Below, piece after piece: positions 39,505 to 55,637 of a stretch of 64,000 nucleotides of DNA; positions within the stretch are counted from its first letter, which is position 1; the number at the start of each line of letters is the position of its first letter. The stretch comes from Hydrogenophaga sp. GTDB lineage: Bacteria > Pseudomonadota > Gammaproteobacteria > Burkholderiales > Burkholderiaceae_C. The position numbers and the translations under genes are program-made. The notes below the pieces were generated by a model, which had not been told where the DNA came from, did not search any database, and worked only from the letters and a program-made list of their open reading frames with translations. The stretch covers positions 78,322 through 142,321 of the forward strand of contig JAEUOT010000030.1 in the NCBI GenBank assembly GCA_016790705.1, read 5' to 3'.

Positions 39505-40461
39505 TCATGGTGCCGCTTGCAGCGCCCGCAACTCCTGCGGCGGTGCCACCGTGACGGCGACCTCCAGCGTGTGGTTGGCCCCGCCCTGGATCACGCCGCG
39601 CATCGGCGAGACGTCGGAGAAATCGCGGCCGGTGGCCAGTTGCACATAGTCTTCCCCCGGACTGTCTTCGCCGGCGCGGTTGTTGGTCGGGTCGAAGTGG
39701 AACCAGGCGCCCTGGCCCGGCACGCTCGGTGCCGGCTCCGGAACATAGACCGCGACCCAGGCGTGCGAGGCGTCGGCACCGATCAGGCGCGGCTTTCCCG
39801 GAGGGGGCTGGGTGAGCAGGTAGCCGCTGACGTAGCGCGCCGGCAAGCCCAGGCTGCGCAGGCATCCGATCATGATGTGGGCGAAGTCCTGGCAGACCCC
39901 CTTCCCCTGGGCCAGCGCGGTGAGGGCGGGCGTGTTGACCCCCGTGCTCGCGGTTTCGTAACTCAGCTCGGTGTGGATGCGCTCCATCAGTGCGCGCGTG
40001 GCTTCGAGCATCGGCCGGCCCGCCACGAAGGCCGGGCGGGCGAAGGCCGAAAACGCGTCGTCGCGCGGGACGTGGGGCGAGGCAAACAGGAACTCGCTGG
40101 CCGGGTTGAAGGGGGCCTTGGCGCGGTACCGGAAATGTTCGCGCACCGCCTCCCAGCCCAGCGCCTGCCAGGCCTGGGCCTGCGGACCTGAGGGCAGCGG
40201 ACGTGGCTCGCGGGTCTCGATCTCGCTGTCGGCCTCGACGGTCAGCGTTTCATGGGGCGATTGCAGGGAGAAGAAACACCGGCGGTTGCCGAAGGCATCG
40301 AGGATCTCGCTGTGGCCGACCGGCTCGGGGCGGATGCGCAGCGCATGCGCCAGCACTTTCTGTGTCGCGGTGTCGATCGGCGAGAGATGGACCATGTGCT
40401 GGGCCAGATCGACATTGCCTTGGTAGTGATACGTGGTGGTGTGCAGTACGCGCAGCTTCAT
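39505..40461 (-). CDS. Transglutaminase-like cysteine peptidase family protein (318 aa)
   Basis: The cytosolic-looking 318-residue protein has an N-terminal beta domain (MKLRVLHTTTYHYQGNV) and a transglutaminase core. The catalytic triad is Cys190 in GKGVCQDFAHIMI, His233 in DASHAWVAV and Asp257 in FHFDPTNN. No signal peptide is visible. It follows the ATP-grasp/alpha-E fusion by 14 bp in the same direction, so it is part of module A of the ATP-grasp/transglutaminase locus. The substrate is unknown; peptide or protein modification is inferred. Confidence 0.9.
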   Translation of the reverse strand: MKLRVLHTTTYHYQGNVDLAQHMVHLSPIDTATQKVLAHALRIRPEPVGHSEILDAFGNRRCFFSLQSPHETLTVEADSEIETREPRPLPSGPQAQAWQALGWEAVREHFRYRAKAPFNPASEFLFASPHVPRDDAFSAFARPAFVAGRPMLEATRALMERIHTELSYETASTGVNTPALTALAQGKGVCQDFAHIMIGCLRSLGLPARYVSGYLLTQPPPGKPRLIGADASHAWVAVYVPEPAPSVPGQGAWFHFDPTNNRAGEDSPGEDYVQLATGRDFSDVSPMRGVIQGGANHTLEVAVTVAPPQELRALQAAP

Positions 40462-40475
40462 GGTCGGGGCGGGTG

Positions 40476-43064
40476 TCAGGCACCCAGGCTCTGGCGGCGC
40501 TGGTCGGCGTGGCTGAAGTGCAGTCGCGTGATTTCGTCGGACAGCTCGGCCGCCGAGGCCTCGCACTCGTCGAGCAGGGCCCCGAGCATCGCGTGCACCC
40601 TTCGGCCGTCCTCGTGGCGTTCCCAGCCGCTGAGTTCGGTCAGCACCCAGGTGTCCGGGTCCGGCAGCCCCTGGGCCAGCACCGCGTCCCGTGGCGTCGC
40701 GCTCTGTGACAGCTTGGCCAGCCGGGACCGGAGGGTCTGCACCACCCAGGCCAGGGAGCGCGGGTTGTCGCGGTCCATCACCAGCAGATCAACCAGCGCG
40801 ACCATGTCGCGCCGCTGCTGGTACATGGCGTGGAAAGTGATGGTACTGTCGAACTGCGCGACCACCGCTTCGAAACCGCTCGGGTCGTCGAGGCTGTGGT
40901 GGTCCAGCGCGAGCATCAGGGCCCGCGACAGCGTGATCAGCCGCTCGATGTGGCGGCCCACCGAGAGCAGGCGCCAGCCGCTGTCCCGCACCATGCGGTC
41001 GGTCTGCGCGCCGGTGATCGCGGCCAGCAGCTCGCTGGTGTTGTTCAGCGCCGCCATGGCCTCGGCGATGGCGTACTCGGCGTCGGCCGCCATGGCGGTG
41101 CAATCGCGAGCGAACTCGCTGTCCGCGCGTTCGATCAGGTTCCAGTGTTCGGGCGAGAGGCGGTCGCGCACCTGGGCGGCGGCGTGTCGCAGGGCCCGCA
41201 GGTTGAAGCCGACGCTGTAGCTGCGGCCGTGCATCGGGGTGCCGGGCTGCGGAGAGAGTCCGGCCATCAGGGCCCGGGCGAACACCCGTGCCGACTGCTC
41301 GGCCGAGGGCACATCCGGCAACACCAGCGCATTTTCCCGGCAGGCCTCGGACAACCAGGCCAGCAGGGCGCGCGAGCTGGGCTCTTCTCCGCCGAGGTGG
41401 TCCAGCGCGATGCGGGCCAGGCGCACGCCGTTCTCCGCCCGTTCGGTGTAGCGGCCCAGCCAGAACAGGTTCTCGGCAGCGCGGCTGGTGACGGGGCGCT
41501 TGTGGTGGGCCAGTGCCAGCGTGCTCGGTGCCGACTGGAGCAGGCTGGTGGTGTCGACGGCCGCACCCGTGTCGACCCAGCAATCCGCGCTGGAGCCCCC
41601 GCGCTGCATGGACGCCATGAGCTGGCCGCGCGGTGCCAGCCGCACCAGGCCACCCGGCAGCACGCGCCAGCTTCGCGCGCCATCGGCCAGCGCGAACACC
41701 CGCAACAGGGTCGAACGTGGCAGCAAATGTTCGCCAGTCCAGGTCGGTGTCTGCGACAGCGGAAGCCAGGTCTGCACCGTGTAGTCCTCGGGATGGCGCA
41801 CCATGCGGCCGGCCCATTCGTCCATCTCGCGCGGTCCCAGGCTCTGGCCGATCGCCGTGTCCAGGCCGGACTGCGGGTAGGTGGGTTTGATCACCCCGTC
41901 CTTGAGCAGCGGCAGCACTTCGCGCAGCGCCGCATCTTCGCCGCACCACCAGGTGGGCAGCGAGGGCAGGCTCAGCTCCTCGCCCAGCATGTGGCGGCTG
42001 ATGGCCGGCAGGAAGCCCAGCAGCGCGCTCGACTCCAGCGGCGCAGAGCCGGGCGCGTTGGCCAGCAGCAGGTTGCCCGCGCGCAGCACCTGCAGCAGCC
42101 CGGGCACGCCCAGGCTGGAGTCCGAGCGCAGCTCCAGCGGGTCCAGCCACTCGTCGTCCACCCGCTTGATCAGCGCATGCACGGGCTCCAGGCCCTTGAG
42201 CGTCTTGAGGTAAAGCCGCTGGTCGCGAACGGTCAGGTCATTGCCCTCGACCAGGGTGAGGCCCAGGTAGCGCGCGAGATAGGCGTGCTCGAAATAGGTT
42301 TCGTTGTAAGGCCCGGGGGTCAGCAGTGCGATGCGGGCGTCTTCCCCCTCGGGCGCGAGCGCCTTGATGCCCTCCATCAGCGCGCGGTAGCTCGCCGCCA
42401 GCCGCTGAACCCGCATGCCGGCGAAGGCCTTGGGGAACTGCCTGGCCACCGCGATGCGGTTCTCCAGCAGGTAGCCCAGGCCCGAGGGCGCCTGGGTCCG
42501 CTGCCCCACCACCCACCAGCGGCCGTCCGGTCCCTGCGCGAGGTCGAACGCGACGATGTGCAGCCAGGTGTCGCCGGCAGGGCGCACACCCTGCATGGCG
42601 CGCAGGTAACCCGGGTGGCCCTGGACCAGCGCCGCCGGCAGCAGCGCACGCTGCACCAGCTCGCGCGGACCGTAGAGGTCGGCCATCATCGCGTTGAGCA
42701 GGCGCGCGCGCTGTGTCACGCCCGCCTCGATCTGCGCCCAGTCCTGCGGCCCGATCAGCATCGGGAACAGGTCCAGGGCCCAGGGGCGCTGCTGGCCTGC
42801 CGTGTCGGCGTAGACGTTGTAGGTCACGCCGTTGTCGCGGATCTGGCGCTGCAGGTTGTCGTTGCGCCGGTTCAGCTCGGCCAGGCCCTCGGTGCCGACG
42901 TGCTCGAAAAAAGTGGCCCAGAGCGGATCGAGCGCCTGGCCGGAGGCATCGCGCAAGGCATCCCGGTGGCCCGCATCGGCCCGCACCGACATGGACAAGG
43001 CCCATTCGGCGGGCGAGTCGGGGCTGAGGTCGTCGAAGAGGGACTCGGGGGCGTCGTGGTTCAC
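40476..43064 (-). CDS. Circularly permuted ATP-grasp / alpha-E domain fusion protein
   Basis: The 862-residue protein joins an N-terminal circularly permuted ATP-grasp domain (about 60-480) to a C-terminal alpha-E helical domain (about 525-860). ATP-grasp features are LLTPGPYNETYFEHAYLA, GLTLVEGNDL, IKRVDDEWLDPLEL and KPTYPQSGLD. The alpha-E part starts with LFWLGRYTERAEN. The same two domains occur as separate genes at 49189 and 50630. Proteins of this type are thought to form amide or peptide-like bonds with ATP, with alpha-E as partner domain. It lies between the two transglutaminase genes of module A. No signal peptide is visible. Confidence 0.9.
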   Translation of the reverse strand: MNHDAPESLFDDLSPDSPAEWALSMSVRADAGHRDALRDASGQALDPLWATFFEHVGTEGLAELNRRNDNLQRQIRDNGVTYNVYADTAGQQRPWALDLFPMLIGPQDWAQIEAGVTQRARLLNAMMADLYGPRELVQRALLPAALVQGHPGYLRAMQGVRPAGDTWLHIVAFDLAQGPDGRWWVVGQRTQAPSGLGYLLENRIAVARQFPKAFAGMRVQRLAASYRALMEGIKALAPEGEDARIALLTPGPYNETYFEHAYLARYLGLTLVEGNDLTVRDQRLYLKTLKGLEPVHALIKRVDDEWLDPLELRSDSSLGVPGLLQVLRAGNLLLANAPGSAPLESSALLGFLPAISRHMLGEELSLPSLPTWWCGEDAALREVLPLLKDGVIKPTYPQSGLDTAIGQSLGPREMDEWAGRMVRHPEDYTVQTWLPLSQTPTWTGEHLLPRSTLLRVFALADGARSWRVLPGGLVRLAPRGQLMASMQRGGSSADCWVDTGAAVDTTSLLQSAPSTLALAHHKRPVTSRAAENLFWLGRYTERAENGVRLARIALDHLGGEEPSSRALLAWLSEACRENALVLPDVPSAEQSARVFARALMAGLSPQPGTPMHGRSYSVGFNLRALRHAAAQVRDRLSPEHWNLIERADSEFARDCTAMAADAEYAIAEAMAALNNTSELLAAITGAQTDRMVRDSGWRLLSVGRHIERLITLSRALMLALDHHSLDDPSGFEAVVAQFDSTITFHAMYQQRRDMVALVDLLVMDRDNPRSLAWVVQTLRSRLAKLSQSATPRDAVLAQGLPDPDTWVLTELSGWERHEDGRRVHAMLGALLDECEASAAELSDEITRLHFSHADQRRQSLGA

Positions 43065-43095
43065 GGAACCAAGTATGCCTGCGCGTGCCCGTCCC

Positions 43096-46000
43096 TCACG
43101 CCCTCAGGTCCAGCGTGAACGGAAACTCCCTGCTGGGTGTGGCAGCGGTCACACTCAGGCGACCCGGCGTGTGGCCCATCTGGAAGAAGCGCGAGAGGCG
43201 GCGGCTCTCGGCCTCATAGGCGTTGATGGGGAAGGTGTCGTAGTTGCGGCCGCCCGGGTGCGCCACGTGGTACTGGCAGCCGCCCAGCGACTTGTTCATC
43301 CAGGTGTCCACGATGTCGAAGGTCATGGGCGCATGCACGCCGATGGTCGGGTGCAGCGAGGAGGGCGGATTCCACGCCTTGTAGCGCACGCCGGCGACGT
43401 GTTCACCCACCGTGCCGGTGGGCTGCAGCGGCAGGGCGCGACCGTTGCAGGTGATGGCGTAGCGGCTGTTGTTGTAGCCGCTGACGCGCACCTCCAGCCG
43501 TTCGAGCGAGGAGTCGACATAGCGCACCGTGCCACCGGTCGCGCCTTCTTCGCCCATCACATGCCAGGGTTCCAGCGCGTTGCGCAGCGTCAGCTCGATG
43601 CCGCGCGCGGCCACCTGACCGATCAGCGGGAAGCGGAACTCGAAGTGCGGCTCGAACCAGGCCATGTCGAAGCGATAGCCCACCTCGTTCAGTTCCGTCA
43701 GCACGTCCTCGAAGTCCATGCGGATGAACGTCGGCAGCAGGAAGCGGTCGTGCAGCTCGGTGCCCCAGCGGGTCAGCGGGGCGCGGTAGGGCTGTTGCCA
43801 GAAGCGGGCGATGAGTGCGCGCAGCAGCAACTGCTGGGCGATGCTCATGCGGGCGTGCGGTGGCATTTCGAATGCGCGCAGCTCCAGCAGGCCCAGGCGC
43901 CCGGTCGAGGAGTCGGGCGAGTAGAGCTTGTCGATGCAGAACTCGCTGCGGTGGGTGTTGCCGGTGACGTCGATCAGGATGTTGCGCAGCGTGCGGTCGA
44001 CCAGCCAGGGCGGCATGTCGCTGCCGTGGATGCTGCGGTTGCTCTCGATCTGTTGAAGCGCAATCTCCAGTTCGTAGAGCTGGTCATTGCGGGCCTCGTC
44101 GACCCGCGGCGCCTGGCTGGTCGGGCCGATGAACAGGCCGCTGAACAGGTAGGACAGCGAAGGGTGGTTGTGCCAGAACGCGACCAGGCTGCCCAGCAGC
44201 TCGGGCTTGCGCAGGAAGGGCGAGTCGGCGGGCGTGGCGCCGCCCAGCACGAAGTGGTTGCCGCCGCCGGTGCCGGTGTGGCGGCCGTCGGTCATGAACT
44301 TCTCGGCGCACAGGCGGGTCTGGTGCGCGGCCTCGTACAGGAACTCGGTGCGCTCGACCAGTTCGGCGAAGCTGCTGCTGGGGTGAATGTTCACCTCGAT
44401 CACGCCGGGGTCGGGCGTGACCTGCAGCATCTTCAGGCGCGGGTCGCGGGGCGGCGGGTAGCCTTCGAGCACGATGGTCACGCCGAGCTTCTCGGCGGTG
44501 GACTCGATGGCCGAGAGCAGGTCGAGGTAGTCCTCCAGCCGCTGCAGCGGCGGCATGAAGATGTAGAGGTGCTGGCTCTTGCCGCCGCTGTCCTTTTCGG
44601 CCTTGGGGCCATTGGCGCGTTGCGGATCGCGCGCTTCGACGCACAGCGCCGTGCGGGTGAGCCAGGCGGCGGACTCGCCGCGTTGGGGGAAGCGCGAGGA
44701 GAGGTGTTGCGCCGGCGCAGAGGCTGGATGGGGCTGGCCCGGGCGCAACCCCAGGGCATCGGCCTCGCCGTCCTCGAACCAGTCGGTGCCCTGCATCGAC
44801 ACGGTGCCACCCTCGGCGAACCCGCCTCCGACGGTGTGGGGGTGCACCTGGTGGCGCAGTGCGGCGCCCTTGGGCAGCGGGTCCCTTGCGCTGTGGGGGT
44901 CCTGTTCGATGTGGTACGGATAGTCGCCCTGGGACACCCAGGGCAGCGAGTCCAGCGGCAGGCGGTAGCCCATCGGCGAGTCGCCGGGGATCAGGTACAT
45001 GCGCTCGTCGCGGAAGAACCAGGGGCCGGTGGACCAGACGGTGCCGCTGACGCGGTGGTAGCTGCTCTTGCCGTTGTTCGACAGCGGTCCGTGGCCGGCG
45101 GCCTGCAGCGGCAGGACATACCCCACCGTCGCATCCAGGCCCTGGCCGAACACGCGGCGCAGCCGCGCGCGCTCCAGTTCGTCGTCCAGCTTTGAATCGA
45201 AGGGGTCGACGTTGACCGGCAGGCGGCGCTCGCGCCAGAGGAAGTACCAGGTGTCTTCGAATCCGGGCGTGATGTACTGGGTCGAGAGGCCGAGCTTGCG
45301 CGCCAGGGTCTGGGTGAAGCGCTGCGCGTCCTCGTGGGTGTAGTGGGCCTCGTCGCGTTCGTCGGCCAGCAGCCCGGGGTTGTTCCAGCAGGGTTCCCCG
45401 TCGGCGCGCCAGAAGATCGACAGCGCCCAGCGCGGCAGTTGCTCGCCCGGGTACCACTTGCCCTGACCCATGTGCACGAAGCCGCCGTCGCCGTAACGCT
45501 CGCGCAGCCGGCCGACCAGCTCGGTCGCGTAGCCGCGCTTGGTCGGACCGAGCGCGTCGGTGTTCCATTCGGCGGCGTCGCGGTCGCTGGTCGCGACATA
45601 GGTCGGCTCACCGCCCTGCGTCAGCCGCACGTCGTGCTGCACCAGATCGGCATCGACCTGTTCTCCGAGCTTGAGCACCTCCGCCCATTGGTCGTCGGTG
45701 TAGGGCTTGGTCACGCGCGGCGATTCGTAGATGCGGGTGACCTTCATCTCGTGGCCGAACTCGACCTCGCACTTGTCGACCCCGCCTTCGACGGGCGCGG
45801 CGCTGGAGGGCTGGGGCGTGCAGGCCAGGGGGATGTGCCCTTCACCGGCCAGCAGGCCCGAGGTCGGGTCCAGCCCGATCCAGCCGGCACCGGGCAGGAA
45901 CACCTCGCACCAGGCGTGCAGGTCGGTGAAGTCGGCCTCGGGCCCGCTGGGCCCGTCGATCGCCTTGACGTCCGGCGTGAGCTGGATCAGGTAGCCGGAG

Positions 46001-46602
46001 ACGAAGCGCGCGGCCAGGCCCAGGTGGCGCAGCAACTGGACCAGCAGCCAGCCCGAGTCGCGGCAGGAGCCGCTCTTGAGCGTGAGGGTTTCTTCCGGCG
46101 TCTGCACGCCCGGCTCCATGCGGATGGTGTAGCCGATGTCTTTCCAGAGCTTCTGGTTGATGCCGACCAGGAAATCGATGGTGCGCTGTTCGCTGCGGTC
46201 GACCTGGTCCAGGTAGCTCTTGATCAGCGGCGTCAGCGGTGCGGCGGCGAGGTAAGGGGCCAGTTCCTGCTTCTGCGCCTCCTCGTAGGTGAACGGGAAG
46301 GTCTCGGCGCGTGGTTCGAGGAAGAAGTCGAAGGGGTTGTGCACCGCCATTTCGACCACCAGGTCGATCGTGACCTTGAACTCGCGGGTCGGCTCGGGGA
46401 ACACCAGGCGGGCCTGGTAGTTCGCGAACGGGTCCTGCTGCCAGTTGATGAAGTGCACGCCCGGTTCGATCTTCTGCGAATAGGACAGCACCTTGGTGCG
46501 GCTGTGCGGTGCGGGGCGCAGGCGGACGACCTGGGGGCCCATCTTGACGAGGCGGTCGTACCGATAATGGGTGATGTGGCTCAGGGCGACATGGATGGCC
46601 AT
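43096..46602 (-). CDS. Giant transglutaminase/DUF2126 protein
   Basis: The 1168-residue protein starts at MAIHVALSHITHY (46602). The first 270 residues are a transglutaminase domain with Cys180 in SGSCRDSGWLLV, His229 in DLHAWCEVF and Asp245 in GLDPTSG. The remaining 900 residues are the DUF2126 region (TQGGEPTYVATSDRDAAEW, SIFWRADGEP, GGGNHFVLGG, HPSLSYLFSG). The DUF2126 segment shows some glutamine-synthetase/ATP-grasp-like acidic motifs, but its chemistry is unknown. It is the first gene of module A. The family regularly accompanies alpha-E and circularly permuted ATP-grasp proteins. Confidence 0.9.
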   Translation of the reverse strand: MAIHVALSHITHYRYDRLVKMGPQVVRLRPAPHSRTKVLSYSQKIEPGVHFINWQQDPFANYQARLVFPEPTREFKVTIDLVVEMAVHNPFDFFLEPRAETFPFTYEEAQKQELAPYLAAAPLTPLIKSYLDQVDRSEQRTIDFLVGINQKLWKDIGYTIRMEPGVQTPEETLTLKSGSCRDSGWLLVQLLRHLGLAARFVSGYLIQLTPDVKAIDGPSGPEADFTDLHAWCEVFLPGAGWIGLDPTSGLLAGEGHIPLACTPQPSSAAPVEGGVDKCEVEFGHEMKVTRIYESPRVTKPYTDDQWAEVLKLGEQVDADLVQHDVRLTQGGEPTYVATSDRDAAEWNTDALGPTKRGYATELVGRLRERYGDGGFVHMGQGKWYPGEQLPRWALSIFWRADGEPCWNNPGLLADERDEAHYTHEDAQRFTQTLARKLGLSTQYITPGFEDTWYFLWRERRLPVNVDPFDSKLDDELERARLRRVFGQGLDATVGYVLPLQAAGHGPLSNNGKSSYHRVSGTVWSTGPWFFRDERMYLIPGDSPMGYRLPLDSLPWVSQGDYPYHIEQDPHSARDPLPKGAALRHQVHPHTVGGGFAEGGTVSMQGTDWFEDGEADALGLRPGQPHPASAPAQHLSSRFPQRGESAAWLTRTALCVEARDPQRANGPKAEKDSGGKSQHLYIFMPPLQRLEDYLDLLSAIESTAEKLGVTIVLEGYPPPRDPRLKMLQVTPDPGVIEVNIHPSSSFAELVERTEFLYEAAHQTRLCAEKFMTDGRHTGTGGGNHFVLGGATPADSPFLRKPELLGSLVAFWHNHPSLSYLFSGLFIGPTSQAPRVDEARNDQLYELEIALQQIESNRSIHGSDMPPWLVDRTLRNILIDVTGNTHRSEFCIDKLYSPDSSTGRLGLLELRAFEMPPHARMSIAQQLLLRALIARFWQQPYRAPLTRWGTELHDRFLLPTFIRMDFEDVLTELNEVGYRFDMAWFEPHFEFRFPLIGQVAARGIELTLRNALEPWHVMGEEGATGGTVRYVDSSLERLEVRVSGYNNSRYAITCNGRALPLQPTGTVGEHVAGVRYKAWNPPSSLHPTIGVHAPMTFDIVDTWMNKSLGGCQYHVAHPGGRNYDTFPINAYEAESRRLSRFFQMGHTPGRLSVTAATPSREFPFTLDLRA

Positions 46603-46718
46603 GCTGGGGTCACTTTCAACAGGGAGACACAAACAATGAAGACGCAAGCAGAGCGGGAATCCGCCCGCGTCCCCCCGGATCTAGCAAGTCTCGCGCCACG
46701 AATCATTCGAGCGCGATT

Positions 46719-49145
46719 GTGAAGGCCATGCACCCGGTGTGGGCGGCACTGCCCGGTGTGGTGCTGGGCGTCGGCCTCCAGCTCCAGCAGGCGGCCCTGT
46801 GGCCGGTGTCCGTCTACCTCGCTCTGTCCGGCGCCGCGCTGCTGCTGATGTGGCTGGCGGGGCGTTGCCGCCGTGGCGGCGCGCCGGCCCTTTTGGCCGG
46901 GTTGCTTGCGGGGGCGCTGATGTCGGCAGGGATCACCGGCCTGCGCGCCGCCCACCAGCTCGCGCAGGTCCTGCCGCCCGGGCTGGAGGGGGTCGATCTG
47001 GTGGTGGTCGGCGAGATCGCTGCGATGCCGCAACACGGTGCGGACAGCGACCGCTTCGAGGTCCAAGTCGACAGCGCCGTGCGGGACGGACAGGTGGTCC
47101 GTGTGCCGCCGCGTCTGCTGTTGAGCGATTTCCGGACCGAAGGCGCAAGGCGCGACTGGCGGGCGGGCGACGCCTGGCGGCTGACCGTGCGGCTGCGCCG
47201 TCCGCACGGCGCCTCCAACCCGCACGGCTTTGACCGGGAGCGCTGGCTCTGGGAGCAGGGCTTCGGTGCGACAGGGTACGTGCGGGCCACGGCGCGCGAC
47301 CCGGCCCCGGTCTTCCTCGGCGCGCGGGGATGGCACCCCGTCGAGCGGGCGCGACAGGCGGTGAGCGAGCGGATCGTGGCCCGGGTGGGCGATGTCCGCA
47401 GCGCGGGTGTGCTGCAGGCGCTGGTGGTGGGCGACCAGGGGGCGATCGAGCGTGGTGACTGGGCCTTGTTCCGGACCACGGGCATTGCGCATCTGCTCAG
47501 CGTATCGGGGCTTCATGTCACCATGTTTGCGTGGCTGGCGACAGCATTGATCGGCTGGGGCTGGCGGCGGCTGGCGCGGGTCTGGCCGGGCGCCCTGATG
47601 GCGCTGCCGGCGCCGGTCGCCGCAGGCTGGGGCGGGGTGCTGATGGCCGGCGGGTACGCGCTGTTTTCCGGCTGGGGCGTGCCCTCGCAGCGCACGGTGC
47701 TGATGCTCGCAACCGTCGTGGGCTTGCGGCTGGGCGCTCGCCAGTGGCCTTGGCCGATGGTGTGGTTGCTGGCGATGGTGCTTGTGCTGGGGCTCGATCC
47801 CTGGGCCCTCTTGCAGCCGGGTTTCTGGCTCAGCTTCGTCGCGGTGGGCATCCTGTTTGCCTCCGGTACCCAGGCCACGGACCGGGACCGGGAGGCGTCG
47901 CGGCAGCAGCCGGGCTGGCGGCGGCTGGCGGGAGCCGGCCTGTCAATGGTGCGCGAGCAGGCGGTGGTCACCCTGGCGCTGGCGCCGCTGGGGCTGCTGC
48001 TGTTCGGGCAGGCGTCGGTGGTGGGGCTGCTGGCGAATCTGGTCGCGATCCCCTGGGTGACGCTGGCTGTCACGCCCCTGGCCCTGCTGGGCGTGCTGCT
48101 GCCGCCCTTGTGGGACCTGGCCGCGCTGGCGGTGCAGGGACTGACGGTCTGGCTGGATTGGCTCGGCGGGTTCTCCTGGGCGGCGCTGTACCGGCCGGTG
48201 CCGCCGCTGCCGCTGGCGGTGCTGGGGATTGCGGGTGGTGTGCTGCTGGTGCTGCGCCTGCCCTGGCTGCTGCGCAGTGCCGGGCTGCTGCTGATGGCGC
48301 CCTTGCTGCTGTGGTCCCCGCCACGGCCAGCGCCGGGCGCATTTGACGTGATGGCGATCGACGTGGGTCAGGGCAGCGCGCTGCTGCTGCGCACCGCCGG
48401 CCACAGCCTGCTCTACGACACCGGTCCGCGCTACGGTCCCGGCAGCGACGCGGGCGACCGCATCGTGGTGCCGCTGCTGCGGGCGCTGGGGGAGCGGCCC
48501 GACACGGTGGTGGTGAGCCACCGCGACAGTGATCATTCGGGCGGCGCGGCGGCGGTGCGGGCGGCCTGGCCGGAGGCGCGCTGGCTGGCGTCCTTCGGCG
48601 AGGGGGAGCGCTGCCTGGCCGGCCAGCACTGGACCTGGGACGGGGTGCATTTCGAGGTTCTTCACCCCTCGCCGGAGCACTACGGGCCGGATGGCGAGGG
48701 GCGGCTCTCGACCAACGCGATGTCCTGCGTACTGCGGGTCGACAACGGGCAGCGTTCGGCCTGGCTCAGCGGGGATCTGGATGCGGAGCGCGAGACCCGG
48801 CTGTCGATGGCCCACCCCGATCTCCGGGCCGACCTGCTGGTCGCTCCGCACCACGGCAGTGCATCGTCCAGCGCGCCTGTGCTGCTCAACAGCCTGCAGC
48901 CCCGCACGGTCCTGATCCAGTCGGGCTACCGCAACCGCTTTGGCCACCCGGCACCGCTGGTGCTGGACCGGTACCGGGCGCGCGGCATGCTCTGGACAAA
49001 CACGCCTCAATGTGGTGCATCGCTGTGGCGCAGCGATACCCCTGACCGGGTGTCGTGTCACCGTGATGAGGCACGCCGCTACTGGCACCATCCGGGTGCG
49101 CCAGACAGCGTGCCCGACGAGGGGGACGACACCGGTCTTCCTTGA
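46719..49145 (+). CDS. comEC: ComEC/Rec2-type DNA internalisation protein
   Basis: The 808-residue inner-membrane channel carries single-stranded DNA into the cytoplasm in natural transformation. Layout: several N-terminal helices and a DUF4131-like domain, the competence transmembrane region (GIAHLLSVSGLHVTMFAW from about 255), and a C-terminal metallo-beta-lactamase domain (AIDVGQGSALLLRTAG, VVSHRDSDHSGGAA, APHHGSASSS). The first start is a GTG at 46719 with GAG upstream; the ATG at 46728 is an alternative. It lies between the two halves of the ATP-grasp/transglutaminase locus and may share no function with them. Confidence 0.92.
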   Translation: MKAMHPVWAALPGVVLGVGLQLQQAALWPVSVYLALSGAALLLMWLAGRCRRGGAPALLAGLLAGALMSAGITGLRAAHQLAQVLPPGLEGVDLVVVGEIAAMPQHGADSDRFEVQVDSAVRDGQVVRVPPRLLLSDFRTEGARRDWRAGDAWRLTVRLRRPHGASNPHGFDRERWLWEQGFGATGYVRATARDPAPVFLGARGWHPVERARQAVSERIVARVGDVRSAGVLQALVVGDQGAIERGDWALFRTTGIAHLLSVSGLHVTMFAWLATALIGWGWRRLARVWPGALMALPAPVAAGWGGVLMAGGYALFSGWGVPSQRTVLMLATVVGLRLGARQWPWPMVWLLAMVLVLGLDPWALLQPGFWLSFVAVGILFASGTQATDRDREASRQQPGWRRLAGAGLSMVREQAVVTLALAPLGLLLFGQASVVGLLANLVAIPWVTLAVTPLALLGVLLPPLWDLAALAVQGLTVWLDWLGGFSWAALYRPVPPLPLAVLGIAGGVLLVLRLPWLLRSAGLLLMAPLLLWSPPRPAPGAFDVMAIDVGQGSALLLRTAGHSLLYDTGPRYGPGSDAGDRIVVPLLRALGERPDTVVVSHRDSDHSGGAAAVRAAWPEARWLASFGEGERCLAGQHWTWDGVHFEVLHPSPEHYGPDGEGRLSTNAMSCVLRVDNGQRSAWLSGDLDAERETRLSMAHPDLRADLLVAPHHGSASSSAPVLLNSLQPRTVLIQSGYRNRFGHPAPLVLDRYRARGMLWTNTPQCGASLWRSDTPDRVSCHRDEARRYWHHPGAPDSVPDEGDDTGLP

Positions 49146-49188
49146 ACGTGGCCCGCTCCTTGCTATGCTGGTGGCAGGAGAAAAGTCC

Positions 49189-50628
49189 ATGAGCCGACCG
49201 ATGTTTGACGAAATGAATGCCTCGCCCAGCGAGGTGCGGACCCACTACCTGAACTACGCACGGTGGCTGGCACAACAACCCGAGGAGGTCATGGCATCCC
49301 GGCGGCAGGAGGCGGAAATGATCTTCCGCCGCGTCGGCATCACCTTTGCCGTGTACGGCGCCAAGGACGAGGACGGCGCCGGGACCGAGCGCCTCATCCC
49401 CTTCGACCTGATTCCGCGCATCATCCCCGCGCACGAGTGGAAGAGCATGCAGGCAGGGCTGGTGCAGCGCGTGACCGCGCTCAACCGCTTCATCCATGAC
49501 ATCTACCACGGCCAGGAAATCATCAAGGCGGGTCTGATCCCCTCCGAGCAGATTTTCCAGAACGCCCAGTTCCGTCCCGAGATGATGGGCGTGGACGTGC
49601 CCAACCAGATCTATTCGCACATCTCGGGGATCGACATCGTGCGCGCGCCCAATGCCCAGGGCGAGGGCGAGTACTACGTGCTCGAAGACAACCTGCGCGT
49701 GCCCAGCGGGGTGAGCTACATGCTCGAAGACCGCAAGATGATGATGCGGCTGTTCCCGGACCTGTTCACGCAGAACCGCGTCGCCCCGGTGGCGCATTAC
49801 CCCGACCTGCTGCTGGAGACCCTGCGCGCCGTCAGCCCCGCGACCACGGCCGAGCCCACGGTGGTGGTGCTCACGCCTGGCATGTACAACAGCGCCTACT
49901 TCGAACACGCCTTCCTCGCGCAGCAGATGGGTGTGGAGCTGGTCGAGGGCCAGGACCTGTTCGTCAAGGACAACTTCGTCTACATGCGCACCACCAAGGG
50001 CCCCAAGCGTGTGGACGTGATCTACCGCCGGGTGGACGATGACTTCCTCGACCCGCTGGCGTTCCGCCCCACCTCCACCCTGGGTTGCGCCGGCCTGCTG
50101 GGCGTGTACCGCAGCGGCAACGTGACCATCTGCAATGCAGTGGGCACCGGCATCGCCGACGACAAGTCGATCTATCCCTACGTGCCCAAGATGATCGAGT
50201 TCTACCTGGGCGAAAAACCGATCCTCAAGAACGTGCCGACCTACATGGGCCGCAACCCCGACGACCTCAAGTACATGCTCGACAACATGGCCGAGCTGGT
50301 GGTCAAGGAAGTGCACGGCGCTGGCGGCTACGGCATGCTGGTCGGCCCGGCAGCCACCAAGGCCGAGGTGGACGAGTTCCGCGCCGTGGTCAAGGCCAAG
50401 CCCGACGGCTACATCGCCCAGCCCACGCTCAGCCTCTCGACCTGTCCGACCTATGTCGAGAAGGGCATTGCGCCGCGCCACATCGATCTGCGGCCCTTTG
50501 TGCTTTCGGGCAAGGAGGTGCAGATGGTGCCGGGCGGCCTTACCCGGGTGGCGCTCAAGGAGGGCTCACTCGTTGTCAATTCCTCCCAGGGTGGCGGAAC
50601 AAAAGACACCTGGATTCTGGAGAACTGA
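49189..50628 (+). CDS. Circularly permuted type 2 ATP-grasp protein
   Basis: The 479-residue protein is homologous to the N-terminal half of the 862-residue fusion, with VVLTPGMYNSAYFEHAFLA, GVELVEGQDLF, IYRRVDDDFLDPLAF and KEVHGAGGYGMLVGP, the last being a glycine-rich nucleotide-binding loop. The start MSRPMFDEMNA has GCAGGAG about 8 bases upstream. It is the first gene of module B; the alpha-E gene begins 2 bp after its stop. Confidence 0.92.
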   Translation: MSRPMFDEMNASPSEVRTHYLNYARWLAQQPEEVMASRRQEAEMIFRRVGITFAVYGAKDEDGAGTERLIPFDLIPRIIPAHEWKSMQAGLVQRVTALNRFIHDIYHGQEIIKAGLIPSEQIFQNAQFRPEMMGVDVPNQIYSHISGIDIVRAPNAQGEGEYYVLEDNLRVPSGVSYMLEDRKMMMRLFPDLFTQNRVAPVAHYPDLLLETLRAVSPATTAEPTVVVLTPGMYNSAYFEHAFLAQQMGVELVEGQDLFVKDNFVYMRTTKGPKRVDVIYRRVDDDFLDPLAFRPTSTLGCAGLLGVYRSGNVTICNAVGTGIADDKSIYPYVPKMIEFYLGEKPILKNVPTYMGRNPDDLKYMLDNMAELVVKEVHGAGGYGMLVGPAATKAEVDEFRAVVKAKPDGYIAQPTLSLSTCPTYVEKGIAPRHIDLRPFVLSGKEVQMVPGGLTRVALKEGSLVVNSSQGGGTKDTWILEN

Positions 50629-50629
50629 C

Positions 50630-51589
50630 ATGCTTTCGCGTACCGCCGACCACCTCTTCTGGATGTCCCGCTACACCGAGCGGGCCGAAAACACCGCGCG
50701 CATGCTCGATGTGAACTACCAGACCTCGCTGCTGCCGCAGTCCGCCGCCGTCGCGCAGGTGGGCTGGCAGGGCCTGCTGTCGATCAGCGAGCTGCTGCCC
50801 AGCTATGCCGCCAAGTACGGCCAGGACATCACGCCGCGCAACGTCATGGACTTCATGGTGCGCGACGAATCGAATCCGTCGAGCATCGTTTCCTGCCTGC
50901 GGGCGGCGCGCGAGAACGCGCGTGCCGTGCGCGGTGCGCTGACGACCGAGCTGTGGGAGACCCAGAACGCGACCTGGCTCAAACTGGCCGGCTACCTCAA
51001 GTCCAAGGACTTCGAGCGCGACCCGGGCGCTTTCTTCGAATGGGTCAAGCACCGCTCGCACCTTTCCCGCGGCGTGGCCGTCGGGACGATGCTGCAGGAC
51101 GAGGCTTTCCACTTCTACCGCATGGGGTCGTTCCTGGAGCGTGCCGACAACACGGCGCGCCTGCTGGACGTGAAGTTCCACGCGGTGCAGAGCGACTTCT
51201 TCGGTGCCGCGAGCGCCGAGGACCAAGAATACGACTTCTACCACTGGAGCGCGATCCTGCGCTCGGTCTCCGGCTTCGAGGTCTACCGCAAGGTCTACCG
51301 CGACGTCATCACGCCCGAGCGGGTGGCCGAGCTGCTGATCCTGCGCCCCGACATGCCGCGCAGCCTGGCGGCCTGCATGAACGAGGTGGTGGCCAACCTC
51401 AGCGTGGTGGCCAACGAGGTGTCCGGCGAGACGCAGCGCCGGGCCGGCAAGCTCAAGGCCGATCTGCAGTACGCCCGCATCGACGAGATCCTGCTGACCG
51501 GCCTGCACGCCTTCCTCACCCAGTTCCTGGACCGTGTGAACGAACTGGGCGGCCGGATCAGCCAGGACTTCCTGGTGCCGGTTCACTAG
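50630..51589 (+). CDS. Alpha-E domain protein
   Basis: The 319-residue, nearly all-helical protein is of the alpha-E family (DUF403). It contains ADHLFWMSRYTERAENTARM near the start, repeated later as MGSFLERADNTARLLD, and RPDMPRSLAACM. It matches the C-terminal half of the 862-residue fusion. It follows the ATP-grasp gene by 1 bp and precedes the transglutaminase gene, forming module B. No enzymatic motif is recognised; it is likely a partner or scaffold of the ATP-grasp enzyme. Confidence 0.9.
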   Translation: MLSRTADHLFWMSRYTERAENTARMLDVNYQTSLLPQSAAVAQVGWQGLLSISELLPSYAAKYGQDITPRNVMDFMVRDESNPSSIVSCLRAARENARAVRGALTTELWETQNATWLKLAGYLKSKDFERDPGAFFEWVKHRSHLSRGVAVGTMLQDEAFHFYRMGSFLERADNTARLLDVKFHAVQSDFFGAASAEDQEYDFYHWSAILRSVSGFEVYRKVYRDVITPERVAELLILRPDMPRSLAACMNEVVANLSVVANEVSGETQRRAGKLKADLQYARIDEILLTGLHAFLTQFLDRVNELGGRISQDFLVPVH

Positions 51590-51692
51590 CCCGGACGGCG
51601 GACCGGCAACCGCGGGCGAGACGGGTGGTGGGGGCGGGGCACAATGCGGCTTTCGGGTTCACTGCCGGGCGCTCCCGCAGTGCCCGCGTCGC

Positions 51693-52526
51693 ATGAAGCT
51701 TCACATCCGCCACGTCACCCGCTACCACTACAGCCAACCGCTGCTCTATTCGGTGCAGAGCCTGCATCTCTGGCCGTCGGGCAACGCCTGCCAGACCGTG
51801 ATCGACTGGGACCTGCGGGCGCCCGCGCCGCTGTTTCTCCAGCCCGACGGGCAGGGCAACCGGAACCACAGTTTCAGCCTGCTCGCGCGCCCCGAGCGCA
51901 ATCTGCGCGAGATCGCGATCACCGCCACGGGCACGGTGCTCACCCACGGCGTGGCGGACTTCGTCGACGCCGGCCACCTTCCGCCACCGGGCTTCTACCT
52001 GCGTTCCGCCGCGCTGGCCGAACCCCATCCGCGCATGGCGCTGTGGGCGCTCCAGGTGGTGCCCGCGCTGGTGGCTGCCCGTTCGCGCGGTGACCAGCCA
52101 TCGATTGCCGATCTGCTCGCGCTGACCGAGGCGGTGGCCGACAAGGTGCGTTACCGCAAGGGCAGCACCGGCGTCGAGACGACCGCCCTCGAGGCCTTCG
52201 ACTGGGAGCTGGGGGTGTGCCAGGACCAGGCCCACGTGATGGTCGCGGTGTGCCGGAGCATCGGGTTGCCGGCGCGGTATGTCAGCGGGTATTTCCATGC
52301 CGCAGACGAGCCCGAGCTGGCCAGTCACGCCTGGACCGAGGTCTGCATCGACCCGGAGGCCGGCCGCTGGCTGAGCCTCGATGTGACGCACCGGGGGCTG
52401 ACCGATGAGCGCCATGTGCGGCTCGCCGCCGCCACCGACTACACCGCCTGCCCGCCGGTCAAAGGCCTGCGCCGGGGTGGCGGCGAGGAGCGCATGTCGG
52501 TCGACGTGCGCATCACGCCGGTCTGA
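51693..52526 (+). CDS. Transglutaminase-like protein of module B (277 aa)
   Basis: The protein has an N-terminal beta domain (MKLHIRHVTRYHYSQPLLYSV) and a transglutaminase core with Cys176 in LGVCQDQAHVMV, His212 in ASHAWTEVC and Asp230 in SLDVTHRG. It is the third gene of module B, 103 bp after the alpha-E gene. No signal peptide is seen, so it acts in the cytoplasm. It resembles the 318-residue protein of module A, but with shorter loops. Confidence 0.9.
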   Translation: MKLHIRHVTRYHYSQPLLYSVQSLHLWPSGNACQTVIDWDLRAPAPLFLQPDGQGNRNHSFSLLARPERNLREIAITATGTVLTHGVADFVDAGHLPPPGFYLRSAALAEPHPRMALWALQVVPALVAARSRGDQPSIADLLALTEAVADKVRYRKGSTGVETTALEAFDWELGVCQDQAHVMVAVCRSIGLPARYVSGYFHAADEPELASHAWTEVCIDPEAGRWLSLDVTHRGLTDERHVRLAAATDYTACPPVKGLRRGGGEERMSVDVRITPV

Positions 52527-52530
52527 GGGC

Positions 52531-53604
52531 TCAGGGTTTCTTCACCAGCGCCTCGATGGTCCGACCCAGTTCGAGCACGGCCATCGCGTAGTAGCTGCTC
52601 CAGTTGTAGCGCGTGACCACGTAAAAATTGTCGGTGCCCGCGACATAGGTGGGCGCCGCGCCGCCCTGGGCCGGGTCGCCGTTCTGGAGCTCGATCAGCG
52701 CCAGTTTGCCGATGTGTTTCTGCCCCTCGGCATCGAGCAGTGCGCCCTTGGCCATGAAGCTCTCGACGCCGAAGCTCGGCAGAATGTCGGGCGCCAGCAG
52801 GCCGTCCTTGTCGAGCGTCTGCAGGTCGAAGCTCACGGGGTAGTGGGTGGGCTGGCCGGTCTGCCAGCCGTAGGACTTGAAGTAGTTCGCGACTGAGCCG
52901 ATCACGTCGTCCGCGCTGCTGAACAGGTCAACCTTGCTGTCGCCGTCGAAGTCGATGGCGTAGCGCGACCAGCTGCTGGGCATGAACTGGGGCCAGCCCA
53001 TGGCACCCGCGTAGCTGCCGCGCACGGTCAGCGGGTCCATCCCGTTGCGGCTGGTCAGGCTGAGGAACTGTTCGAGTTCGCTGCGAAAGAACTCGGCCCG
53101 CGACTCGGCGCGCGGATGGCTGGCCGGAAAGTCGAACGCCAGGGTGGTCAGCGCGTCGATGACACGGAAGTTGCCCGTGTGCTGACCGTAGAGGGTCTCG
53201 ACACCGATGACGCCGACGATCAGGCTGGCCGGAACGCCGTACTCTCGCTCGGCCCGCTCCAGCGCCTCGCGATGGGCTTCCCAGAAGCGCTGGCCCGCGC
53301 GGATGCGGATCGGCTCGACGAAACGTGCGCGATAGGCCGCCCAGTTCTTGTAGGCCGCCTTCGGGGCCGGCAGGGACAGCCGGATCACCGCCGGCAGGCG
53401 CCGCGCGGAGCCGATCTGCTGGCGCACCCACTGCGGGTCCAGCCCGCGGCGCTGGGCCAGGTCGTCGGCGAATGCCATGGCGACCGGCGACAGCGCATAG
53501 GTGGTGGCGTCGGTCGTGGGGGTCTCGGCGGGTGGCTGCGCGGACACGGAGCCCGCAGCCAGTGCGGCGACCAGCAGCGCCGGTCGCAGGAAGTGGAATG
53601 ACAT
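52531..53604 (-). CDS. mltB: Membrane-bound lytic murein transglycosylase B family
   Basis: The 357-residue protein begins at MSFHFLRPALLVAALAAGSVSA (signal peptide; 53604) and has a lysozyme-like core with catalytic Glu136 in VGVIGVETLYGQHTG. Further typical elements are GSYAGAMGWPQFMPSSW and the IGSVANYFKSYGW segment. It lacks the Cys of a lipobox, so it is not obviously a lipoprotein. It is transcribed behind the TgpA-type gene with only 5 bp between, and may trim peptidoglycan. An ATG at 53625, overlapping the upstream gene, is an alternative start. Confidence 0.9.
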   Translation of the reverse strand: MSFHFLRPALLVAALAAGSVSAQPPAETPTTDATTYALSPVAMAFADDLAQRRGLDPQWVRQQIGSARRLPAVIRLSLPAPKAAYKNWAAYRARFVEPIRIRAGQRFWEAHREALERAEREYGVPASLIVGVIGVETLYGQHTGNFRVIDALTTLAFDFPASHPRAESRAEFFRSELEQFLSLTSRNGMDPLTVRGSYAGAMGWPQFMPSSWSRYAIDFDGDSKVDLFSSADDVIGSVANYFKSYGWQTGQPTHYPVSFDLQTLDKDGLLAPDILPSFGVESFMAKGALLDAEGQKHIGKLALIELQNGDPAQGGAAPTYVAGTDNFYVVTRYNWSSYYAMAVLELGRTIEALVKKP

Positions 53605-53609
53605 ATGAC

Positions 53610-55637
53610 TCAGGCAGGAGGCCATGGGGCGGGCCAGGGCAGTTGTTGCAGCAGATTCTGCACGGCCGCCAGCGTATCCGGACTCTGCGGCGCATAGCGC
53701 AGGGCCTCAAGACGCAGCAGCGCCTCGCGCAGCCGGTCTGTGAATTCGTTGTCACCGAACTGCGCCGAAGCGACGCGCGCCAGTTCGCGCGGAGTCGCGT
53801 GGGCACCGGCCTGGATGCCCACCTTGCGCAGCCGGTGGCGCACGCGTTCCAGCGCCCGCAGCCAGGGGTCGTGCTGCTGACGTTCCCACAGCGTCCAGGC
53901 GGCGCCCGCCAGACTCACGCCGACCACCACACCGATCAGCACATAGACCAGGTCCGTCCAGCTGGGGGACTCGAAGCCCAGTTGCTTGAGCAGGTCCAGT
54001 TGACGGCCCTGGGTGTAGTTGAGCACCCACTGGTTCCAGCCGTTGTTGACCGCGTCCCAGGCGTCCCTGAGACGTTGCGCGAGTGTCGGGTCGAAGGTTC
54101 GCAGTGCGTTCGCGAACACCCCCTGCGGGGGTTGCAGGCGCTCCAGGGAGCCGGTGCGCGAGGGCGCCACCGCCCCCGTCGGATCGACCCGGACCCAGCC
54201 CTGCCCGGCCAGCCAGACCTCGGCCCAGGCGTGCGCGTCGCGCTGACGCACCATCCAGTAGCCGTCGACCACGTTGAGCTCCCCGCCCTGGTACCCGGTC
54301 ACCACGCGGGCCGGGATGTCCATGGCCCGCATCAGGATCACGAACGAGGACGCGATGTGCTCGCAGAAGCCTTCCTTGCGGTCGAACCAGAACTCGTCGG
54401 CGGTGTGCTGGCCATAGACGCCCGGATCGAGGGTGTAGGTGTAGCCGCCGGTGCGCAACCGATCCAGCACCACATCGACTAGCGCCCGCGCCGACCCGGG
54501 GCCGCTGCCATGTTCGCGGCGCAGCGACTGCGCCAGTGCCAGCGTGCGCGGGTTGTAGCTGGCCGGTAGCGCGCTCAGGTCTTCCAGCGCCAGCACCTGC
54601 TGCTGGGGTCCGTGGCGAAAGCGCGTGTACGCCTCGGCCTTGAAGCGCACCAGCTCGGTGATCGGCTGGCGGGTGACCCACAGCAGCTCCGGCGTCATGA
54701 AGGCGCGGTTGCCCGGCAGCGACGGGGCATTCACCGCAGCCTCCAGCAGCGGCAGCCAGGGGCGCTGGGACGGCTCCAGCGTGACCTCGTAGGTCACCGG
54801 CGCACCGTCGACCGACAGGTTGGCCGGCAACTCCATGGGGGCCGGAAAACCCGAGCGCGCGGGCTTCCACTCGACACCGTCGAAATCCCCGAGCACGGGG
54901 CCACGGAAATACAGATCCCGCTGGGCGGGCACCGGGCCTTCGAAGCGGATGCGCATCGCGATCCGCTCGTCCAGCACCAGTTCGGCGATCTGCCCGACGC
55001 GCATCCGGTCGGACAGGCCGGTGCGCGCCTGGTTGTCGGCGCCGGGCATGCCCCACAGCGGCGCCAGCCGCGGAAACAGCATGAACGCGACCACCATGAT
55101 GGGCGCGCCGAAGACCGCCATCCGCAGCGCGATGCCGGCGGCCCGCGGCAGCGGGGGGCGACCCACCGGCATGTGGGCGTTGACCAGTGCGGTCAGCAGC
55201 CCGAGCAGCGCGATCAGGATGCCCGCTGCGGTGAGCAGGGATTGCGAAAAGAAGAAGTGCGTGAGCAGGGTGAAGAAACCCAGGAAGAACACCACGAAGG
55301 CATCGCGTCGGGCTCTCAGTTCGAGGGTCTTGAGCGCCAGCAGCACCACGATCAGCGTCACGCCGGCATCCCGCCCGATCAGCGTCCTGTGGCTGAACCA
55401 AGTCGCCGCCACCGTCAGCGCCAGCAACCCGATGCGCCAGCCCCAATGGGGCAGCGGGCGCCCCCGCAGCGACAGCACGGCACGCCATGCGAGCACACCC
55501 GCCGTCAGCGCGGTGCACCACCAGGGAATGTGCGCCACCTGCATCAGCCCGATCCAGCCGATCACCACCAGCAGGAACAGGGTGTCGCGGGTTTCGCGGG
55601 GCAGGGCGCCCAGGCGCTGGCGCAGGGTGTTCAGCAC
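53610..55637 (-). CDS. tgpA: TgpA-type membrane transglutaminase (DUF3488)
   Basis: The 675-residue inner-membrane protein starts with GTG at 55637, overlapping the stop of the DUF58 gene by 7 bp. Its N-terminal five to six helices (DUF3488) are followed by a periplasmic transglutaminase domain with Cys425 in KEGFCEHIASSF, His469 in DAHAWAEV and Asp485 in RVDPTGA, then a C-terminal helix (about 575) and a cytoplasmic tail (DUF4129-like). In Pseudomonas TgpA is an essential periplasmic transglutaminase. The substrate is unknown. It forms an operon with the MoxR and DUF58 genes. Confidence 0.92.
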   Translation of the reverse strand: MLNTLRQRLGALPRETRDTLFLLVVIGWIGLMQVAHIPWWCTALTAGVLAWRAVLSLRGRPLPHWGWRIGLLALTVAATWFSHRTLIGRDAGVTLIVVLLALKTLELRARRDAFVVFFLGFFTLLTHFFFSQSLLTAAGILIALLGLLTALVNAHMPVGRPPLPRAAGIALRMAVFGAPIMVVAFMLFPRLAPLWGMPGADNQARTGLSDRMRVGQIAELVLDERIAMRIRFEGPVPAQRDLYFRGPVLGDFDGVEWKPARSGFPAPMELPANLSVDGAPVTYEVTLEPSQRPWLPLLEAAVNAPSLPGNRAFMTPELLWVTRQPITELVRFKAEAYTRFRHGPQQQVLALEDLSALPASYNPRTLALAQSLRREHGSGPGSARALVDVVLDRLRTGGYTYTLDPGVYGQHTADEFWFDRKEGFCEHIASSFVILMRAMDIPARVVTGYQGGELNVVDGYWMVRQRDAHAWAEVWLAGQGWVRVDPTGAVAPSRTGSLERLQPPQGVFANALRTFDPTLAQRLRDAWDAVNNGWNQWVLNYTQGRQLDLLKQLGFESPSWTDLVYVLIGVVVGVSLAGAAWTLWERQQHDPWLRALERVRHRLRKVGIQAGAHATPRELARVASAQFGDNEFTDRLREALLRLEALRYAPQSPDTLAAVQNLLQQLPWPAPWPPA

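Follow-up and report, generated by a model that had tools for sequence, protein, structure and literature searches.

Two divergent groups of genes in a 64 kb stretch of DNA from a Hydrogenophaga sp. (termed the window, that is, the whole stretch analysed) encode two circularly permuted (CP) ATP-grasp domains, two Alpha-E domains and three transglutaminase domains, and on balance they are best read as one cytosolic system for making and breaking amide bonds, which would be induced by nitrogen starvation through NtrC and sigma-54. In the left half, read from the minus strand, ATP-grasp and Alpha-E are fused in a single protein, which on this reading would serve as a non-ligase partner, while in the right half, read from the plus strand, they are encoded by separate genes and are referred to as the split pair. 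The two halves diverge around comEC, and the features are as follows.

39505-40461, minus strand: TgA, a small transglutaminase-like protein of 318 residues (Bact_transglu_N plus core, Pfam) with the triad C190/H233/D257 (alignment)
40476-43064, minus strand: fused A-type protein of 862 residues, comprising a circularly permuted ATP-grasp (CP_ATPgrasp_2, residues 101-477) with a degenerate ATP site and an Alpha-E domain (residues 526-850) (Pfam, motif tallies, dN/dS)
42498-42506, minus strand: codons giving the fused protein G187-Q188-R189 at the position of the E-x-N motif (alignment)
43096-46647, minus strand: protein that joins a transglutaminase to DUF2126, a putative amidoligase, and probably begins at M16 (46602) (Pfam)
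46683-46698, minus strand: sigma-54 type -24/-12 site that precedes the DUF2126 gene, with one mismatch (consensus match)
46719-49145, plus strand: comEC, a full gene between the halves, not counted as a member of the system (Pfam)
49085-49099, plus strand: weak NtrC-like palindrome, one of 11 such matches in the window, situated 64 bp before the -24 element
49149-49164, plus strand: sigma-54 type -24/-12 site that precedes the split ATP-grasp gene, with one mismatch (consensus match)
49189-50628, plus strand: split B-type circularly permuted ATP-grasp (CP_ATPgrasp) of 479 residues, with E-x-N, Lys and Gly-loop complete (Pfam, PDB 3n6x, motifs)
50630-51589, plus strand: split B-type Alpha-E protein of 319 residues with an all-helical model (Pfam, predicted structure)
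51693-52526, plus strand: TgB, a small transglutaminase-like protein of 277 residues with the triad C176/H212/D230 (Pfam, alignment)

Every gene and domain named in the first-pass annotation, a model's reading of the letters, was found in place by Pfam. The two adjacent modules it described are real as gene halves, although it did not mention the complete comEC gene between them, and the halves are here read as one system. The assembly (84.75% complete) contains two Alpha-E and two CP-ATP-grasp domains, and every match lies inside the window. The coordinates leave 1-103 bases between same-strand genes and therefore little room for a precursor-peptide gene, which agrees with the earlier remark that none is obvious, a negative that rests on the gap sizes, beyond which no search was made.

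ATP-grasp site, ancestry and partner domains

The split type, whose residues are numbered from codon 49192, retains D148, E165-D166-N167, K372, G379-Y380-G381 and N463 in 124/124 aligned rows, many of which are close relatives rather than independent samples, so that the split protein carries the Asp, Glu-x-Asn, Lys and Gly-loop of a catalytic ATP-grasp. Here, as in the trees and in the conserved-column and triad alignments, domains below a set length or score were excluded. In contrast, the fused protein lacks both the Glu-x-Asn and the Gly-loop: E165 occurs in 0/52 fused-type rows, N167 likewise in 0/52 with an Arg in its place in 48, N463 is kept in none (three of the 52 rows being gapped), and the Gly-Tyr-Gly loop is mostly lost. 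At the E-x-N position, the fused protein of the window reads G187-Q188-R189. These tallies assign one locus, L089, to the split group by the tree and two incomplete rows, L062 and L076, to the fused group by motif, both places having earlier matched the fused protein; without this reassignment they would be 124/126 and 0/50. In a wider fused-type set, drawn from 30 genomes with at least two listed Alpha-E matches and one Enterobacter plasmid, the Asn was present in 0/31 rows and the Glu in 1/31. Moreover, the Asn is absent from all four further fused-type rows (Granulicella, Caballeronia and two Burkholderia), while 6/6 split-type rows in the same follow-up set keep E-D-N. The complete ATP-grasp signature which had been ascribed to each module is thus contradicted for the fused one.

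The Mg ligands of glutathione synthetase (GshB) are Asp273, Glu281 and Asn283 (PMC10979984). By motif likeness, D148 and E165-x-N167 are presumed to be their equivalents. Judged from the alignments, two presumed Mg ligands and the glycine loop are missing from the fused ATP-grasp, which is most likely a non-ligase partner of the active pair, such as a scaffold, a substrate-holding or a regulatory subunit. The split ATP-grasp is predicted to be the ligase, because its closest solved relative is PDB 3n6x (734 bits), deposited under the depositors' label of putative glutathionylspermidine synthase, and because the motifs examined are kept.

The loss of motifs in the fused type does not resemble decay. 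At 27 alignment columns, at least 90% of the fused rows share a residue that differs from the split type, and the fused gene is under purifying selection, with a ratio of nonsynonymous to synonymous substitution rates (dN/dS) of 0.17-0.21 when the window is compared with two Hydrogenophaga relatives. The same comparison gave 0.065-0.072 for the split ATP-grasp and 0.107-0.181 for the DUF2126 gene, and the split Alpha-E, compared with one Hydrogenophaga relative, gave 0.033. In addition, the fused type possesses a conserved motif of its own around R-T-Q-x-P-S-G-x-G-Y.

Trees were built from 93 Alpha-E and 96 ATP-grasp domains, taken from the window, from 14 of 80 Comamonadaceae-type loci (the best 80 matches) and from class-wide loci. 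A fully supported branch of the ATP-grasp tree sets apart 34 of the 35 fused rows, and the lone exception, L089 from genome G258, is a split-type pair that became fused secondarily, in a genome that has two fused proteins of different types. In the Alpha-E tree, 62 split rows and L089 are united by a branch with support 100/99, and the fused rows, on long branches, are less clearly ordered. The window copies fall in opposite old clades that span the class, separated by 1.93 changes per column, and the fused type also occurs in other classes of the phylum and on an Acidobacteriota plasmid. The fused and split types are therefore ancient paralogues, the product neither of a recent duplication nor of unrelated families. 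The contrast between fused and unfused architecture, considered as the key difference, was discarded, as the split-type pair is also fused in L089. Distances between fused and split ATP-grasps are correlated (Mantel r 0.588 over 24 pairs, with 0/2000 permutations as high), a correlation that is not separable from shared species history. The best relatives of the split Alpha-E are Hydrogenophaga loci, with identity of up to 98%.

The claim that the transglutaminases have complete Cys-His-Asp triads was borne out: the triad is invariant in 23/23 aligned rows of TgA and 27/27 of TgB (rows below 100 bits excluded), and C195, H244 and D260 of the DUF2126 protein are invariant in 26 sequences, so that all three transglutaminase domains keep it. 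The Pfam profile of DUF2126 is covered at 826/826 positions with 1343.6 bits. The predicted structure of this protein is poor (predicted local distance difference test, pLDDT, 57.3), and Foldseek matched it below E 0.001 only to the transglutaminase-like 3isr; a glutamine-synthetase-like nature, considered as a candidate, was left unconfirmed by this model. The split Alpha-E model is all-helical with a pLDDT of 86.9. No PDB entry matched its fold at E ≤ 0.001 by Foldseek (best E 0.47), the template modelling score normalised by query was at most 0.29 among 50 listed of 179 matches, and sequence matches to translin were weak and not significant (E 0.52-0.59). In Variovorax loci L066, L022 and L080, a TgB-type transglutaminase was undetected after the split Alpha-E gene, which suggests that TgB is dispensable or replaced there.

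Shared gene order, co-occurrence and nitrogen control

Of 274 genomes sampled from the class, Gammaproteobacteria, 79 carry Alpha-E, as do 156 of 299 sampled from the phylum. The dependence between the two types runs one way: the fused type occurs in 22/274 genomes and is accompanied by the split type in all 22, while the split type stands alone in 57 of the 79, where 46 genomes (that of the window included) were typed on fetched DNA and the others by match score and open frame. Both types lie within 15 kb of each other in 14/22 genomes. DUF2126 is present in 50/274 genomes, all of them among the 79 with Alpha-E, and is more frequent in genomes with the fused type (20/22) than in the others (30/57; Fisher p 0.0015); in several genomes (L116, L117, L118), it adjoins the split pair without a fused gene.

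Elsewhere, both types stand in same-strand runs, as judged from the positions of the system genes. All six genes form one such run in Burkholderia cenocepacia (L180). On a 90.7 kb plasmid of Enterobacter roggenkampii (L175), the run comprises ATP-grasp, Alpha-E, the transglutaminase-DUF2126 protein, the fused protein and a transglutaminase; three of its four junctions abut or overlap, one is a gap of 159 bases, and the surrounding region contains insertion sequences. Same-strand runs were further observed in Caballeronia (L176, interrupted by one opposite-strand gene), in Sphaerotilus (L064) and a relative (L046), and in the class genomes L101, L109 and L115. A plasmid of Acidithiobacillus caldus (L179, 4461-8969) carries ntrB/ntrC and two Anbu-like genes beside DUF2126, ATP-grasp and Alpha-E, with an aliphatic amidase in the same stretch and the DUF2126 protein read in two pieces. 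On a Sphingomonas plasmid (L178), a split set lies near genes for a urea-carboxylase-associated protein and an arginyltransferase.

Five one-mismatch sigma-54 type sites occur in the whole 64 kb on both strands, and two of them stand before the halves, so that a candidate -24/-12 promoter, as judged by consensus match only, precedes each half. The comparative scan accepted at most two mismatches within 250 bp upstream. Among Comamonadaceae-type loci, whose counts are not independent, sites precede the split ATP-grasp in 72/80 cases (shuffled mean 3.55, maximum 7; reverse strand 1/80) and DUF2126 in 35/42 (shuffled mean 1.4; reverse strand 8/42). The class set, which is the fairer test, gave 17/49 for the split ATP-grasp (shuffled mean 1.25; reverse strand 3) and 9/31 for DUF2126 (shuffled mean 0.95; reverse strand 4). 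Genes internal to the runs have such sites in 0/50 (fused) and 3/127 (split Alpha-E) cases. The NtrC-like palindrome near the split half was not counted as evidence, because the window holds 11 of them.

A single system is indicated because the genes share an order elsewhere, sigma-54 type sites stand before both halves, DUF2126 keeps company with either type, and the fused type depends one-sidedly on the split one. The same four observations speak against the earlier proposal that the modules are parallel versions with a different substrate each. The gene set, the joint order elsewhere, the promoter sites, the loss of motifs, selection and co-occurrence are all read from sequence comparison, and to that extent the one-system reading is a prediction.

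That the split half depends on nitrogen and NtrC is taken from the work of others on relatives and would apply here by analogy. With ntrC mutated in B. cenocepacia H111, expression changed by log2 values of -8.2 for the ATP-grasp, -9.4 for Alpha-E, -9.4 for the transglutaminase and -6.0 for a large transglutaminase protein, and these four genes (I35_5080-83) are named as joint NtrC/sigma-54 targets (PMC5491218). Their order matches that of L180, which is another strain. In Pseudomonas putida, PP_2685-2688 are induced when ammonium is missing or limiting (PMC8050072, PMC7801951); nitrogen limitation raised the expression of PP_2686-2688 in the wild type by 11-15 fold (PMC7801951), and the ATP-grasp and Anbu genes rose on nitrate (PMC8050072). 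Nitrogen control of the system is accordingly well supported, and strict sigma-54 control is not uniform across species.

Around the locus, an SLT_2 lytic transglycosylase gene (52531-53625, minus strand) and a TgpA-type membrane transglutaminase gene (53610-56072, minus strand) directly follow the right half. The latter product is the fourth transglutaminase-domain protein in the stretch, and SLT_2 and TgpA genes occur near the locus in many relatives; sigma-54 type sites precede the lytic transglycosylase gene in 6/38 cases versus a shuffled mean of 1.45. A glutamate-cysteine ligase gene (Glu_cys_ligase, 34404-35966, plus strand) is located a few kb from the left half.

Proposed mechanism and alternatives

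Pairs of ATP-dependent amide making and amide breaking run several amine-using pathways, including gamma-glutamylation and that of glutathionylspermidine synthetase/amidase, and such a pair would suit a response to nitrogen starvation. From these parallels and from the domains present, we infer the following scheme, in which the chemistry, the partner role, the control of the fused half and the benefit are all proposed. Nitrogen starvation would switch on both halves through NtrC/sigma-54. The split CP-ATP-grasp and Alpha-E would form the working ligase, in which ATP turns a carboxylate into an acyl-phosphate that is attacked by an amine, and the amide formed would be a peptide or isopeptide bond. 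Transglutaminases are papain-like enzymes able to break or transfer amides, and those of the system might hydrolyse or transfer the resulting amide, while the transglutaminase-DUF2126 protein is predicted to carry out a second ligation or a transfer. The split pair would have the fused ATP-grasp/Alpha-E protein as its scaffold, substrate-holding or regulatory partner. The benefit would be salvage or turnover of nitrogen; as to the product, the main alternative is the tagging of proteins or peptides for Anbu.

Several observations weigh against this single-system reading. Intact halves lie far apart or on different contigs in 8/22 genomes, and a Granulicella plasmid (L177), as far as the plasmid itself was searched, carries the fused half with DUF2126 and a transglutaminase and no split pair. 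One of the eight genomes, G081 (L096), keeps its intact split set elsewhere, and next to the fused half it has a further split-type copy that is broken. In Hydrogenophaga, the halves have separate promoters and Anbu lies elsewhere; no sigma-54 type site occurs within 600 bp of the Anbu gene of the window genome, and the Anbu gene of a congener has one weak match 544 bp upstream. If H111 shares the gene order of L180, the fused gene should fall among the two loci numbered next after I35_5083, and these are named neither in the main text nor in Table 1 of PMC5491218. The rpoN mutant of P. putida still induces PP_2686-2688 by 14-20 fold, and urt genes likewise, while its Anbu gene PP_2685 hardly changes (1.12 in the wild type, 1.45 in the rpoN mutant; PMC7801951). 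The retention of D148 (51/52), R280 (51/52), R434 (50/52) and Lys or Arg at 372 (48/52) suggests that the fused type may still bind nucleotide or phosphate. Finally, the alignment to the GshB profile is weak (13%) and reached only the Lys/Gly-loop stretch, not E165-x-N167, and permuting the profile did not extend it.

Induction of PP_2686-2688 persists in the rpoN mutant, which speaks against a strict need for sigma-54 in P. putida, and the joint behaviour of the split set and the urt genes in that mutant fits poorly with NtrC/sigma-54 control. Together with the missing fused gene in the NtrC table, these data weaken the single-system reading and strengthen the view that two independent systems with different substrates stand side by side, one formed by the fused protein with DUF2126 and TgA and its own non-standard chemistry, the other by the split pair with TgB and Anbu. 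This view, which would also accommodate the deep divergence of the two types, the Granulicella plasmid, the 57 genomes with the split type only and the separate promoters in the window, appears rather unlikely in the light of several lineages and a plasmid in which a same-strand run holds both types, of the split type in all 22 fused genomes, and of DUF2126 beside split pairs that have no fused neighbour.

Slightly less credible, and on the whole unlikely, is the notion that the fused ATP-grasp is itself a working ligase, binding Mg through Asp148 and new residues, so that both enzymes would act in sequence. Asp148, Arg280 and Arg434 are retained as given above, Asp283 is mostly kept, the new R-T-Q-x-P-S-G-x-G-Y motif is strongly conserved, and PEARL enzymes show that catalysis can persist when the Asn is replaced by His (PMC10979984). 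Against this, the glycine loop and the two presumed Mg ligands are lost jointly.

A bolder and distinctly improbable interpretation regards the fused protein as a reworked ATP-grasp that no longer uses ATP and seats another activated ligand at the old site, such as the end of an aminoacyl-tRNA or the acyl-phosphate that the split partner makes, within a two-subunit starvation machine. Its output would be nitrogen-starvation tagging or peptide extension linked to Anbu, the ancestor of the proteasome. A recent local duplication in Hydrogenophaga with later fusion, which the same domain set side by side might suggest, has next to no chance given the depth of the clades, the placement of the window copies and the occurrence of the fused type outside the class; the earlier suggestion of duplication with specialisation holds at the depth of the two old groups.

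Related systems and implications

Glutathionylspermidine synthetase/amidase pairs an ATP-grasp with a papain-like amidase, in contrast with the window, where amidase and ligase are separate proteins. Anbu is a proteasome-like, known partner of ATP-grasp, Alpha-E and transglutaminase systems, and an Anbu gene is present in the same genome on a different contig (L142), outside the cluster; counts of Anbu by Pfam search miss some genes, such as that of L117. The closest precedent is the predicted peptide-synthesis operon of ATP-grasp, Alpha-E, transglutaminase and Anbu, often in the same operon (Iyer et al. 2009, as cited by PMC5666114 and PMC3597751). The window shares with it the joint encoding of CP-ATP-grasp, Alpha-E and transglutaminase, with Anbu at the level of the genome, but it differs in the lack of a linked Anbu, in the additional degenerate fused ATP-grasp/Alpha-E protein and in the division of the halves by comEC.

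The P. putida genes PP_2685-2688 resemble the window in encoding an Anbu-type protein, a transglutaminase, PP_2687 (annotated as hypothetical) and a CP-ATP-grasp (PMC8050072, PMC7801951); the passages of these papers drawn on here mention neither a fused type nor DUF2126 for this set, whose induction, as noted, persists in the rpoN mutant. The B. cenocepacia I35_5080-83 genes likewise encode an ATP-grasp, Alpha-E, a transglutaminase and a large transglutaminase protein (PMC5491218), while the window, unlike the single six-gene run of L180, is arranged as two divergent runs. PEARL enzymes are proposed descendants of ATP-grasp (PMC10979984), and the fused protein, like them, lacks the Mg-binding Asn, the replacement of which is the sole comparable feature. 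In contrast with PEARLs, the window system shows no evidence of a precursor peptide or a tRNA, and the likeness is one of motifs. Among the papers listed by literature searches, none showed an inactive or paired ATP-grasp of this kind, on which Iyer et al. 2009 may say more.

The window carries this system with an additional degenerate fused paralogue, and one of its two ATP-grasps is probably not an ATP-burning ligase. The system is widespread, yet no product is named for it in the passages cited here. The reading of both halves as one unit tells when to look for that product, namely under ammonium starvation, and picks the split ATP-grasp with Alpha-E as the ligase to assay and the fused protein as its partner, whereby the question of what Anbu operons do becomes directly testable.

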